The translations under genes were made by a program, and so were the position numbers. From positions 1 to 6,112 of the forward strand of contig JAGGVT010000153.1 of NCBI GenBank assembly GCA_021157815.1: a DNA stretch of 6,112 nucleotides, in the 5' to 3' direction. The number at the start of each line of letters is the position of its first letter. Within the stretch, counting starts at the first letter, position 1. The notes below the pieces were generated by a model that worked only from the letters and a program-made list of their open reading frames with translations, did not search any database and was not told the DNA's origin. This document shows positions 373 to 6,112 of the stretch, piece by piece. Source of the DNA: a bacterium (GTDB lineage Bacteria; JAJVIF01; JAGGVT01).

Positions 373-741
373 ATGGCTAAACGTCCCAGACCATATATTA
401 TCGTAGATGAAGCAAATAATATCCTGGAAATATATCTTTCCTATGTTTTACAAAGTGAGGACAGTTGGCACTTTGCCGAATGTCCGGAATTGCAAATTGC
501 CGACCAGGGTAAAACACAAAGAGAAGCGATTGAAAATCTCCAGAAAATGGTTGTTGAGGTCTTGCTTGAGGCGATTCAAACTGGCAATCTTAATCGCATG
601 TTATCAGATTTGGGATTCAGGAAATCAACTATCCATCAAAGAAAGCAATTCAGTTCGACCTTTGGCGATTATGAAGAAATGCATCCAATGAGTATAAATG
701 TACCCATTCCGCCAGAAGTTCAAATGGCTTCTACTGCGTGA
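373..741 (+). CDS. hicB: HicB-family antitoxin
   Basis: The 122-residue protein fits HicB antitoxins, which bind and neutralise the small HicA mRNA interferase in the cytoplasm. Residues about 8-66 match the family's partly degraded RNase-H-like fold: a beta strand, then WHFAECPEL (32-40), an IADQG turn (42-46), and a helix with REAIENLQK (50-58) leading into a long hydrophobic helix. The family pattern is ECPEL..A..G.T..EA..NL. Residues 75-122 carry no helix-turn-helix or ribbon-helix-helix motif that I can see, so DNA binding and autoregulation are uncertain. The start is supported by AGGTGA 6 bases upstream and a promoter at 263-292. It ends in TGA at 739-741, and the toxin gene begins in the same frame two codons later. 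The order is antitoxin first, opposite to classic hicAB but known in the family. Confidence 0.85.
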   Translation: MAKRPRPYIIVDEANNILEIYLSYVLQSEDSWHFAECPELQIADQGKTQREAIENLQKMVVEVLLEAIQTGNLNRMLSDLGFRKSTIHQRKQFSSTFGDYEEMHPMSINVPIPPEVQMASTA

Positions 742-747
742 TTTTCA

Positions 748-1011
748 TTGCCTGGAAAAAAGAAAAAATCCGGTATCGGACGAGTTGCCCCTCAAAAAGC
801 CAGAATCCTGGTTAAAGTTTTTAATAAGATTGGATATCATAAAACCAGGCAAAAGGGCTCGCATATTATCATGCGAAAGGAAAATATTAGCCGTCCTTTA
901 CCTATTCCAAACCATCCCGGCGAGGATGTACATCCCAGAATGATTGAACGTCTCTACAAACAGGCTGGTATTACCAGGGAAAAATATTTGCAGATCCTGA
1001 GTGAGCTTTAA
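748..1011 (+). CDS. hicA: HicA-family mRNA interferase toxin
   Basis: The 87-residue protein matches HicA (YcfA-type) toxins, small double-stranded-RNA-binding-fold RNases that cut mRNA and halt translation until HicB sequesters them. Diagnostic parts are a helix ending in NKIGY (26-30), then RQKGSHIIM (34-42) with the presumed catalytic His39 in the G-S-H motif, IPNHPGEDVHP (53-63), and the closing helix RLYKQAGITREKYLQIL. Family members run about 60-90 residues, so it looks complete, with a short basic N-terminal extension (KKKK at 4-7). The start is a TTG at 748 with no Shine-Dalgarno sequence; it is the first possible start after the hicB stop, and the next in-frame ATG (871) falls after His39. 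Translation therefore probably depends on ribosomes finishing hicB. A terminator hairpin begins 18 bases after the stop. Confidence 0.85.
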   Translation: MPGKKKKSGIGRVAPQKARILVKVFNKIGYHKTRQKGSHIIMRKENISRPLPIPNHPGEDVHPRMIERLYKQAGITREKYLQILSEL

Positions 1012-2669: not shown

Positions 2670-5600
2670 ATGCGCTTGATACCATTTGTAGCAACCGTAA
2701 TCGCAATCGTGATTATTCTCATTTCCGGATGCTCAGGCGGAAATCCGGTTACCACGGATTCAGATAATCCGTTGCCTGAACAATTGAATTATGCCAATTC
2801 AGAATCCGGGAATAACCTAACCGGGATAATGGGCCCCTATGAACTCATCCTTGATGCCGATTCCCAAACTGCGGAGTTGACATCGAAACGCCAATCCGCA
2901 ATCGGTGAAAGTTACATTGTGAGTGGCAGGAGCTATTTCGTAACACAGCCCTGCTCGGATTGTCTGGTTATTAAGGGAATGAGCTATGATTGCGGTGCGG
3001 TATGTGTCAACTTCGGGATAAAGCATCCGTTCGAACCGGGATCCGCCTTACAGGGTCCGCCATCGGGAAAGAACAGGCTGGATCTTGATATTTTTGATGC
3101 CGCTCTCGTTGTGAAGCCCAATGGCTTAATGCCGTCAACCTATCCATTAACTAATGCAACTATTCATAACGTGATTACCGGCGCTGACGGTTACTCAACT
3201 GAACTCGCGAATGTTATCGGGGAATCGTATGCGTTGCCATATGTCCTTGCGGTTGATGATAGCACTGCTGTTCCCCCGGCAAGCACATATAATGAATTCG
3301 CGATGGGTTCGGAAGCGGAATTCGATGTCCTTTTCCCAATTCCCCCTGGCAGCAGTCTCCAGTTTGATCTATATCTTACCTTTGCATATGGATTCAGTGC
3401 GGTACTGGAAGACAGGTTTGATCCGCAATATTCCAATCCCGAATTTAACCGAAAAGCCGCGTGGAAAGTGAATGTTACGCCACCATCTGGATGGTTAAGT
3501 TTCGACAGCGAAACACCAACCTGGGTGGAAGTCAAAGTTTACGACTGGCAGATCGGAGCGAATGTTGATACAGCGTTGACAAATCCTACTGATATATATT
3601 CAGCATCAGATGTCGATAGCGTTTCAATTGAAATTCTCGGAATGAACCCGACCCTGATATCAGTCCCCGGAAGCAGCGCTATTTCCGGGACCGGGATGCC
3701 TGATGATCCGCTCGTTTACCAGATTCCCATCAGAAACGAAAACCTGATAGCATCGGGAAATTATATCGGTCTGGTAAAAGTAACTGATCAGCGCACCCCC
3801 CAGCTTCCGGAATCAGGACGGGATTTCATTATCCATACCCCTGACGGCAAAGCTCGTGATTTCCATGAAATGCCTGAATATGCGACTTACCAGACATTCC
3901 CAGCGATAGTATCCGACGTTATTAATTTCAATCCGGTAGATGTTACTCCTCCCGGATTGCATTTCTATCCCATCGATATCTGCATTGATGGCAATTACGC
4001 CTATACCGCGGGTGAAATACACGGGGTTCATATATTCGATATCAGCAATCCGGAAAACCCAGTTTGGGTACATAAAATTGATACAGATGGATATCCGAAC
4101 AGGATATTCATTGTGGGTAACTATGCGTGTGTCACCGATGAGAAAGGATTGAATATAATTGATATCTCAAATCCGGAGATTGCAGAAATTATTGGATACG
4201 TTGAAACATCTGATGACTGCTTCGATGTTTATGTCGAAGGCACAACGGCGTATGTGGCAGATGAAGAGGACGGATTACAAATAATTGATGTTTCAGACCC
4301 GACAACGCCAGCAATCATCAATTCAGTTGACACTGACGGACAGGCTTTATCAGTTTGCATTTCCGGTGATTACGCATATATCGCCGATTATGACTACGGA
4401 GTATCTGTAATAGATATTTCCGATCACATGACAGCATCAGTTGTACATCAAATCTCAACAGCCTCTGATGCTTTCTATGTTGTTGTTCGAGGCAATTACC
4501 TTTATGTAGGTACTGATGATGATTTTGAGGTCTGGGATATCAGCACGCCAACTGCTGCAACCAATGTAAATACCATCTCTCTCAGTGATCCCTTCACTAT
4601 TCATCTTGATGGTGATTACGCATACGTTGCTAATGGTTCCTACGGTGGTATGGCTGTTATAGATATTTCATCTCCCGGATTGGAAAGCGTTGTGAAGGTC
4701 GTAGATACTCCCGGCAATACCTGTGATGTTTTCACGCAAAATGGATATGCCTATCTTATTGATTACAGGACCGCACTCCATGTGATTGATGTCGATCCAT
4801 TGGCGCAGGCGGATATTATCAACACGACTCGCACGATCAATAGAGCAAGCAGTGTAACGGTATCGGGTGAATATGCCTATGTATCAAATGGCAGACACAT
4901 TTTGTATATCCTCGACATCGCCCCTCCCGGTGCTGCCGAAATTATCAACACGGTGGAGTCAAATGGTTACTGCTACGATGTTGAAATATACCAGAACTAC
5001 GCGTACGTTGCCGCTCAAAGCGGAGGAATGGAGATCGTGGACATCTCAGATCCTTACAACGCGCAGATCGTTAACACGATCACTGGCCTGAACAATCCTT
5101 ATGCTCTTGATATTTACAACAATTATTTATATGCCTGTGAGATGTCGGTTGGAATACAAATCATGGACCTGATTTTACCAACAGCGCCAAACCAGGTAAA
5201 TACAGTACTCACCACCCTTCCGCTTGCAGTTCATGCGGATGGGAATTATGCCTGTGTTGCTGATGCTACCACTGGGATAAAGATTATCGATATCACTGAC
5301 CCATCAACAGGAGGTGTTGTTGGTTCCTGCAACACGGATGGCAGCGCGCAGGGAATCTTTATATATAACGGATACGCTTATGTCAGTGACTGGGATGAAG
5401 GAGTTGCCGTGGTTGATATTGCCCCACCAGGTTCAGCATCTGTGACTGACAAACTCGCCCTGCCGGGGGACACCTACGCTGTGGTGGTTAAATACGGCTA
5501 CGCATTCGTTGCAAACACCAATGATAATCTCGTGATAGTAGATATTGATCCTCCGGGAACACTGGAATTAGTGGCAACGTTCGATACAATCGGGAGCGGA

Positions 5601-5678
5601 GCAGATGTCGTCGTGGAGGACGGATACGCCTATCTCGCATCAGGTCATGGTGGCCTTCGGATAATCGATCTGTGGTAG
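2670..5678 (+). CDS. LVIVD-repeat beta-propeller lipoprotein
   Basis: A 1002-residue precursor, probably anchored by lipid outside the cytoplasmic membrane. Residues 1-21 are a signal peptide: Arg2, a hydrophobic core, then the lipobox I-S-G-C with Cys21 as the lipidated residue. Residues 22-429 are an exported domain region of no family I can name, probably mostly beta; it holds four cysteines (95, 98, 108, 112; CX2C-X9-CX3C), then HPF (residues about 120) and several beta-sandwich-like stretches. Residues 430-1002 are 14 LVIVD repeats of about 42 residues, each of the form NYAYVAD...G..IIDISDP. Such repeats build beta-propellers, generally thought to bind other proteins or surface ligands; no enzymatic motif is visible. 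The start is set by GGAGGG and by a promoter covering the more upstream in-frame TTG. The gene stands alone and ends in TAG. Its ligand cannot be inferred here. Confidence 0.85.
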   Translation: MRLIPFVATVIAIVIILISGCSGGNPVTTDSDNPLPEQLNYANSESGNNLTGIMGPYELILDADSQTAELTSKRQSAIGESYIVSGRSYFVTQPCSDCLVIKGMSYDCGAVCVNFGIKHPFEPGSALQGPPSGKNRLDLDIFDAALVVKPNGLMPSTYPLTNATIHNVITGADGYSTELANVIGESYALPYVLAVDDSTAVPPASTYNEFAMGSEAEFDVLFPIPPGSSLQFDLYLTFAYGFSAVLEDRFDPQYSNPEFNRKAAWKVNVTPPSGWLSFDSETPTWVEVKVYDWQIGANVDTALTNPTDIYSASDVDSVSIEILGMNPTLISVPGSSAISGTGMPDDPLVYQIPIRNENLIASGNYIGLVKVTDQRTPQLPESGRDFIIHTPDGKARDFHEMPEYATYQTFPAIVSDVINFNPVDVTPPGLHFYPIDICIDGNYAYTAGEIHGVHIFDISNPENPVWVHKIDTDGYPNRIFIVGNYACVTDEKGLNIIDISNPEIAEIIGYVETSDDCFDVYVEGTTAYVADEEDGLQIIDVSDPTTPAIINSVDTDGQALSVCISGDYAYIADYDYGVSVIDISDHMTASVVHQISTASDAFYVVVRGNYLYVGTDDDFEVWDISTPTAATNVNTISLSDPFTIHLDGDYAYVANGSYGGMAVIDISSPGLESVVKVVDTPGNTCDVFTQNGYAYLIDYRTALHVIDVDPLAQADIINTTRTINRASSVTVSGEYAYVSNGRHILYILDIAPPGAAEIINTVESNGYCYDVEIYQNYAYVAAQSGGMEIVDISDPYNAQIVNTITGLNNPYALDIYNNYLYACEMSVGIQIMDLILPTAPNQVNTVLTTLPLAVHADGNYACVADATTGIKIIDITDPSTGGVVGSCNTDGSAQGIFIYNGYAYVSDWDEGVAVVDIAPPGSASVTDKLALPGDTYAVVVKYGYAFVANTNDNLVIVDIDPPGTLELVATFDTIGSGADVVVEDGYAYLASGHGGLRIIDLW
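3957..5675 (+). repeat. Fourteen coding repeats of LVIVD type
   Basis: Repeats begin at residues 430, 476, 517, 559, 601, 641, 684, 726, 768, 810, 852, 893, 935 and 977 of the lipoprotein. Thirteen are 40-46 residues; the last is 26 and stops after RIIDLW, so its final strand is missing. Best conserved are the Y-A-Y turn and the [IV][IV]D[IV] strand. Repeats 5, 7 and 10 diverge most: repeat 7 has DVDPLAQ and repeat 10 DLILPTA in place of DISDP. The DNA copies are not near-identical, so the expansion looks old. Confidence 0.85.
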
Positions 5679-5683
5679 ATCGC

Positions 5684-5732
5684 CATTAAAAAAGCAAAAG
5701 ATGCCTGTGTAGCCAGTAATATTGGGCATCTT
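5684..5732 (-). terminator. Rho-independent terminator for minus-strand transcription
   Basis: AAGATGCC (5698-5705) pairs with GGCATCTT (5725-5732), with a 19-base loop. On the minus strand the stem is followed by TTTTGCTTTTTT, a typical terminator tail. The stop codon of the truncated SIR2-like frame (5731-5733) overlaps the stem. On the + strand it lies 20 bases after the lipoprotein stop but lacks a T run there, so it may end that message only inefficiently. Confidence 0.6.
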
Positions 5733-5877
5733 AAAAGGGGACTGACCCCTTTGGTAGTAACCCACTTGGTTTACTAATCCCTGCACCACACCACCAAATT
5801 ATATTTTTAAATTCCTTATTAAATTTAGATGCATAATCCTTAATAATAGGTGGAAGTGTTTCCAATGATATATCCAT
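5731..5877 (-). pseudogene. Truncated 5' end of a SIR2-like (NAD-binding) gene
   Basis: The 48-residue frame starts MDISLETLPPIIKDY and contains NIIWWCGAGISKPSGL (25-40). The GAGIS.PSGL segment is the N-terminal NAD-binding signature of SIR2-family proteins, preceded as usual by a hydrophobic strand. SIR2 domains need some 200-300 residues; here the match stops at residue 40-42 and the last residues (KGSVPF) are encoded by a palindromic repeat, followed by TAA. The expression signals are intact: AGAGGT (5886-5891) 8 bases before the ATG and TATAAT at 5920-5925. The 117 bases coding for residues 1-39 have 37 G or C by hand count (about 32 percent), visibly poorer in G+C than the neighbouring lipoprotein gene, which fits acquired DNA. 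SIR2-like domains are common in anti-phage defence proteins, but which kind this was cannot be told. Confidence 0.7.
5733..5752. repeat. REP-like palindrome that ends the SIR2-like frame
   Basis: AAAGGGG (5734-5740) and CCCCTTT (5746-5752) form a perfect 7-bp stem around ACTGA. I recognise GGGGACTGACCCC-type palindromes as dispersed repeats in many bacterial genomes, often discussed with REP-associated tyrosine (Y1) transposases; no such transposase is in the window. Its bases encode the last residues of the SIR2-like remnant. The start of the element at 6024 resembles it in the same orientation. Confidence 0.6.
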
Positions 5878-5885
5878 TCTGAATT

Positions 5886-5891
5886 ACCTCT
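5886..5891 (-). promoter_or_regulatory. Ribosome binding site of the SIR2-like remnant
   Basis: AGAGGT on the minus strand, 8 bases before the ATG ending at 5877. It shows that the short frame is a genuine gene start rather than a chance open frame. Confidence 0.65.
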
Positions 5892-5919
5892 ATAAAAATT
5901 GCTACTTTATGCTCATTTA

Positions 5920-5925
5920 ATTATA
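5920..5925 (-). promoter_or_regulatory. -10 box upstream of the SIR2-like remnant
   Basis: A perfect TATAAT on the minus strand; transcription would begin near 5913, about 36 bases before the ATG. No good TTGACA-like box lies 16-18 bases further upstream, and this stretch is AT-rich, so a chance match is quite possible. Confidence 0.4.
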
Positions 5926-6023
5926 AGCAATCTATAATCTGTAATCCTAGTCACATTTTCTTAGGCTTTTGTCACCTTCCCTTTAATTATTTTGAGTGCC
6001 ATCGAGTTGTAAATCAAGCGTAT
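5926..6023. other. AT-rich spacer without a supported gene
   Basis: Contains a 27-codon minus-strand frame (6044 to 5961, reading HSGQRPFIRLIYNSMALK...) bounded by stops on both sides. It has no recognisable domain and overlaps a repeat, so I do not call it a gene. GAGTGCCAT (5994-6002) is nearly complementary to ATGTCACTC (6042-6050), one mismatch in nine, so the region could fold into a long stem-loop. Confidence 0.3.
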
Positions 6024-6050
6024 AAAAGGTCTCTGTCCCGAATGTCACTC
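6024..6050 (+). repeat. REP-like element (GGTCTCTGTCCCGAATGTCAC type)
   Basis: Begins AAAAGGTCTCTGTCCCG, which matches 12 of 17 bases of AAAAGGGGACTGACCCC at 5733-5749, in the same orientation. The continuation GAATGTCACTC matches a dispersed intergenic repeat I recognise from other bacterial genomes (minus strand GTGACATTCGGGACAG). With the element at 5733 it flanks the SIR2-like remnant as a diverged direct repeat. Confidence 0.5.
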
Positions 6051-6052
6051 GG

Positions 6053-6112
6053 TTAAGCAGTATAGCCAATTTCAATTAGTTTACGTTCTAATTTTCTAGG
6101 TATGTTCAATAA
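6053..6112 (-). CDS. Possible 3' end of a minus-strand gene, partial
   Basis: Of the three minus-strand frames entering from the right edge, two stop within five codons. The third stays open for 19 codons and ends in TAA at 6055-6053, reading LLNIPRKLERKLIEIGYTA. The charged, helix-like composition looks like a protein C-terminus, but 19 residues are too few to name a family and could be chance. If real, this gene runs in the same direction as the SIR2-like remnant and ends 176 bases before its start, so the two may once have been neighbours in one acquired segment. Confidence 0.3.
   Translation of the reverse strand, partial: LLNIPRKLERKLIEIGYTA

Follow-up and report, generated by a model that had tools for sequence, protein, structure and literature searches.

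SIR2-type proteins handle NAD and often act in phage defence. Among the members of their SIR2_2 subfamily are the antiphage proteins ThsA, DSR1 and DSR2 (PMC12700824), and DSR2 mediates abortive infection by NAD+ depletion (PMC11087589). REP-associated tyrosine transposases (RAYTs) are encoded by genes lying between inverted REPs (PMC2817692), and IS elements such as ISPpu9 insert in REPs (PMC8450116). The window analysed here is a complete contig of 6112 bp (C107) from a genome in 221 contigs that is 91% complete, and it carries, from left to right, a HicB-like/HicA pair, a sigma-70 family gene, an LVIVD lipoprotein gene and the stump region that concerns us. With a probability of about 80%, we read this region as holding the dead 5' stump of an A+T-rich, probably horizontally acquired SIR2-type gene, cut at the edge of a REP-like unit.

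The stump belongs to a 48-codon ORF on the minus strand (5877 to 5731), defined by the ORF listing and its translation and by SIR2 profile matches. As the preliminary description had it, this ORF has a ribosome binding site and a 48-residue product: in-frame stops precede the ATG, the translation is MDISLETLPPIIKDYASKFNKEFKNIIWWCGAGISKPSGLLPKGSVPF, and a Shine-Dalgarno-like AGAGGT (5891 to 5886, minus strand) stands eight bases before the start. Codons 1 to 42 (5877 to 5752, minus strand), delimited by the SIR2 profile matches, form the SIR2-like part, in which the SIR2-type signature is NIIWWCGAGISKPSGL and the first NAD-binding loop, GAG[IA]S-x-P-S-G-L, is present near the N-terminus. The SIR2_2 antiphage sirtuins (Dsr1/DSR1, DSR2 and ThsA) share this N-terminal loop, hhhCGAGISxPSGLP, at about 20–40 residues from their start, whereas the stump has the first loop only and lacks the conserved TTNFD, LHGR and GYS of the domain. 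This catalytic remainder is absent because the frame ends six codons after residue 42, and a product without TTNFD and LHGR should therefore be unable to form a SIR2_2 domain. The GPxIPxxL of Dsr1-type proteins is likewise missing from residues 1–20 of the stump, and, compared with Dsr1 (about 1250 residues), the peptide falls below the NCBIfam cut-off and has no PADLOC match. A second frame across the junction (5640 to 5789) was considered and set aside, as it shows nothing SIR2-like and continues into the lipoprotein gene in antisense orientation.

The frame ends within a dispersed 19-nt palindrome, AAAGGGGACTGACCCCTTT (5734 to 5752, unstranded), recognised by counting its repeats in the genome. 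It had been proposed that this palindrome supplies the last codons and the stop: the palindrome does provide codons 43–48 and the last base of codon 42, but the stop TAA (5733 to 5731) lies just outside the 19-mer and inside a larger 67-nt REP/BIME-like unit (5686 to 5752, plus strand). This unit, identified from its copies and its fold, combines a GATGCC..GGCATC hairpin with the palindrome, and the fold of 5690 to 5752 has an energy of -22.3 kcal/mol (z -3.15). The exact 19-mer occurs once in the assembly, and with at most three mismatches, on both strands, the palindrome family occupies 43 places in its own genome versus 12 for the reversed control. The family positions inspected are intergenic, and these sequences share with the REP/BIME elements associated with tyrosine transposases (PMC2817692) both the dispersed, short intergenic palindromes that define REPs and the composite hairpins. 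They differ from REP/BIME in that the window palindrome does not begin with a clear GTAG head and that only about three copies of the 67-nt unit exist, one of them 90% identical (C208, 1738 to 1672) and another 75–76% identical on C39.

The edge of this unit is where the SIR2 gene stops. SIR2 profile similarity ends at 5755, three bases before the unit edge at 5752, and the copy on C208 is bounded at the same base as the window unit. In the window the unit sits 8 nt past the stop of the lipoprotein gene, and the C208 copy follows a different gene at a distance of 53 nt from its stop, in the same orientation. Since the unit lies behind a gene, equally oriented, in both places, we read it as the lipoprotein gene's tail, with the stump joined to its outer edge; it looks like a downstream element of that gene which the stump abuts and by which the stump is not interrupted. 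The suggestion that recombination or deletion at a dispersed repeat removed the rest of the gene is thus supported in part, for a gene cut at the edge of a REP-like unit with its remainder absent; recombination at the repeat itself is no more than a candidate for the cutting, as the unit looks like a lipoprotein tail against which the stump abuts.

On its other side the stump is followed by the terminal part of a repeat that exists in several copies and is probably a mobile element (6021 to 6112, minus strand; constant part 6034 to 6112), recognised by exact matches on other contigs. These matches span 79 nt on C70, 78 nt on C199 and 68 nt on C156, all at contig ends, and the window contig itself breaks at 6112. 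A REP half-site (6021 to 6038) adjoins the repeat, and past the constant part every copy continues as a degenerate REP half-site (..CCCCTTTT) that differs from copy to copy. It is as if the repeat were an element inserted in REPs or carrying REPs. The resemblance to ISPpu9 (PMC8450116) lies in this order, the repeat at 6034 to 6112 and then degenerate REP half-sites in its several copies; in contrast with ISPpu9, the window repeat is known from its end alone, its interior falling outside all the assembled contigs seen. The repeat ends in ...LLNIPRKLERKLIEIGYTA-stop followed by CCGAGTGACATTCGGGAC, both in the window (6034 to 6112) and at the ends of C70, C199 and C156. Two further contigs, C186 and C134, have a second, different gene end running into the same CCGAGTGACATTCG, and near the ends of C39 (L042) and C156 (L041) a sequence CTAACTTAACCGGACACTAGTGYAAAA found beside REPs is possibly the end of another IS element. 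In this genome REPs are linked with REP-associated transposases: on C65, two inverted REPs (2332 and 3080) enclose a Y1_Tnp gene of 229 aa, the layout described for RAYTs (PMC2817692), and the palindrome around it, AAAGGGGACGGACACTTTT, is related to the window palindrome without being identical to it.

The neighbouring genes carry repeats of their own. The LVIVD-repeat beta-propeller lipoprotein gene (2670 to 5678, plus strand; PF08309, E 1.3e-78) has twelve LVIVD repeats by Pfam; its ORF is listed from a TTG at 2580, and the ATG at 2670 is followed by a lipobox-like ISGC. Two lipoprotein genes on C199 (L040, 263 to 2506 and 2669 to 4000) resemble it in their N-terminal parts, differ in their C-terminal parts, and adjoin the same multi-copy repeat as window 6034 to 6112. 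Further left (373 to 1011, plus strand), the HicA toxin gene matches PF07927 (E 9.9e-17), and the HicB-like ORF ahead of it has no good Pfam model match. An array of 8-bp units, GTTAGTAA/GTTAGCAG, together with an inverted copy of 21 nt some 360 nt from it, accounts for 2101 to 2180 and 2514 to 2534; TATCCTGAGCGAAGCGAAGGATCTC at 2318 to 2346 is a palindromic, intergenic-repeat-like sequence, and GGAATGACAA/AGAATGACAA motifs occur near 213 and 2418.

The stump and its 5' untranslated side form a single-copy block (5753 to 6020, minus strand) with no second copy anywhere in its own genome. Its G+C content is 31.7%, versus a mean of 44% for sampled loci of the same genome, which places it in the lowest 1.1% of 268-bp windows and agrees with the low G+C ascribed to the fragment earlier. 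The assembly lacks the remainder of the gene, as also proposed: there is no SIR2_2 match in the genome, the six-frame profile search found no continuation, and PF02146 finds only the canonical sirtuin on C146 (10824 to 11174; L108, 1369 to 1911, minus strand). That sirtuin has only 180 aa, and in it LHGNIWHVRCTRS joins directly to CPAAGMAEMA; the second half of its zinc module and the next conserved stretch seem to be missing, through a deletion that kept the frame or through an assembly join. Six 8-mer patterns run over the GTDB contigs of 84,980 species found neither an intact allele nor a close relative, and there was no close relative among viral contigs, in plasmids and phages (protein and DNA searches) or in sets of 192 and 385 related genomes, tblastn included. 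An intact orthologue was found neither in relatives nor elsewhere, and the three genomes of the same class lack one. Searches of relatives failed to turn up the allele that had been envisaged, with the lipoprotein gene and an intact SIR2 gene side by side. These negative results count against the reading as a stump in so far as they leave the ancestral gene hypothetical. Rfam gave no match. Among relatives, the tblastn match that scored best (G120, 63% over 19 residues) lies off-frame in a repetitive gene and is due to chance, and matches on Streptomyces plasmids lie antisense to a gene.

An unlikely explanation, although the strongest of the alternatives, is that the organism has a complete SIR2 gene at another place and that the contig was wrongly joined at the palindrome. 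The fragmentation of the genome (221 contigs, 91% complete), the repeat at the contig end and the coincidence of the G+C step with the palindrome are all consistent with such a join. However, the 19-nt palindrome is exact only here in the assembly, and none of the exact matches of at least 16 nt to the loci compared crosses the junction; within the unit the longest such match has 24 nt (5696 to 5719). Both flanks also carry sequences of this genome: the adjoining repeat occurs in other contigs as well, which places both flanks in this organism, and its presence on three further contigs of the genome speaks against a join between species. Finally, no contig with a continuation of the gene was found, though 9% of the genome may be missing.

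The identity of the stump rests on its SIR2 NAD-binding signature. Profile comparison matches 5755 to 5817 (minus strand, including GAGISKPSGL) to positions 19–39 of a 300-position Dsr1-type SIR2 profile (A2). Searching the 3.2 Mb genome with A2 in six frames returned two matches only, the stump locus first (E 0.014) and then the genome's true sirtuin; A2 is not fully independent of the peptide, because four of the proteins behind it were fetched by the motif and a fifth through its weak resemblance to the peptide. A second profile, of SIR2 N-termini and partly circular because some members were fetched by motif, gave the peptide 22.9 bits versus 12.9 for the best of 20,000 shuffles. A motif-free profile, made from only seven SIR2_2-family members found through PF13289, gave 12.6 bits versus 10.0 for the best of 20,000 shuffles, which places the peptide above every shuffle by a modest margin; among the background frames inspected, those scoring above it were SIR2 proteins. 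A DNA pattern for CGAGISxPSGLP found only six places in 84,980 genomes, and all six are SIR2-like N-termini with the motif near the start. Two of these matches (L081 and L082) were scanned as long proteins together with a protein from a Rhizobium plasmid (L067) that the peptide itself had retrieved; all three contain a SIR2_2 domain and are Dsr1-like by PADLOC. In SIR2 proteins with this motif it lies about 20–40 residues from the start, as it does in the stump.

Protein searches with the 48 residues, suggested earlier as a check, gave a mixed answer. The sole NCBIfam match is Dsr1 at residues 25–40 (E 0.12), at 10 bits against a cut-off of 1400, and Pfam, PADLOC, PHROGs and PDB sequences returned nothing, so that no curated SIR2 family passes its threshold here. 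Curated families need more sequence than so short a peptide offers, and Pfam is of no help because PF13289 begins about 120 residues into the protein, past the end of the stump. Similarity to SIR2 spans only 16–21 residues, and residues 1–20 have no clear match to anything. That a random sequence of 48 codons happens to spell a SIR2-like motif would fit the lack of any family match over its cut-off and the many weak tblastn matches of the peptide, which are chance frames. We nevertheless find this improbable: no other place in the genome scores better in the profile search, either profile puts the peptide above all 20,000 shuffles, and the motif has the correct position behind an ATG that is preceded by a ribosome site. 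Given the profile results, the ATG, the ribosome site and the distance of the motif from the start, the ORF is very probably the 5' end of a SIR2-type gene.

For the decay of an acquired SIR2-type gene, we propose the following course. The start region, with its ATG, ribosome site and 42 codons through the first NAD-binding loop (GAGIS-PSGL), would have survived in the gap between a lipoprotein gene with a REP-like tail and a multi-copy repeat, while all that followed codon 42 would have been lost by illegitimate recombination or deletion with its end point at the outer edge of the REP-like unit. The mobile repeat on the stump's other side could equally have been the agent of the loss. If transcribed and translated, the remnant would yield a 48-residue peptide predicted to have neither a SIR2 fold nor NADase activity. 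We infer acquisition from outside, the deletion mechanism, a former defence role and the loss of function; that this was once a phage-defence gene is plausible by analogy, because of its family and its low G+C. A functional small peptide gene, for example one interfering with NAD-binding enzymes, or a repeat-made minigene derived from a defence protein and maintained as a REP-completed short peptide gene, would fit the intact start region and frame, but we regard both as very improbable, as a dispersed repeat supplies the final codons and the stop, searches found no conserved relative and the promoter scan was not above chance (1 found versus 2.1 expected).

Ordinary gene decay, leaving a pseudogene remnant in a repeat-rich gap, is most likely. 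The locus would be a further case in which an acquired gene, possibly an anti-phage one, has probably decayed in a gap rich in REPs and IS elements, and a single stump alone leaves existing knowledge unchanged. If many such stumps were known and all ended at REPs, they would bear on the question whether REPs favour the loss of genes.
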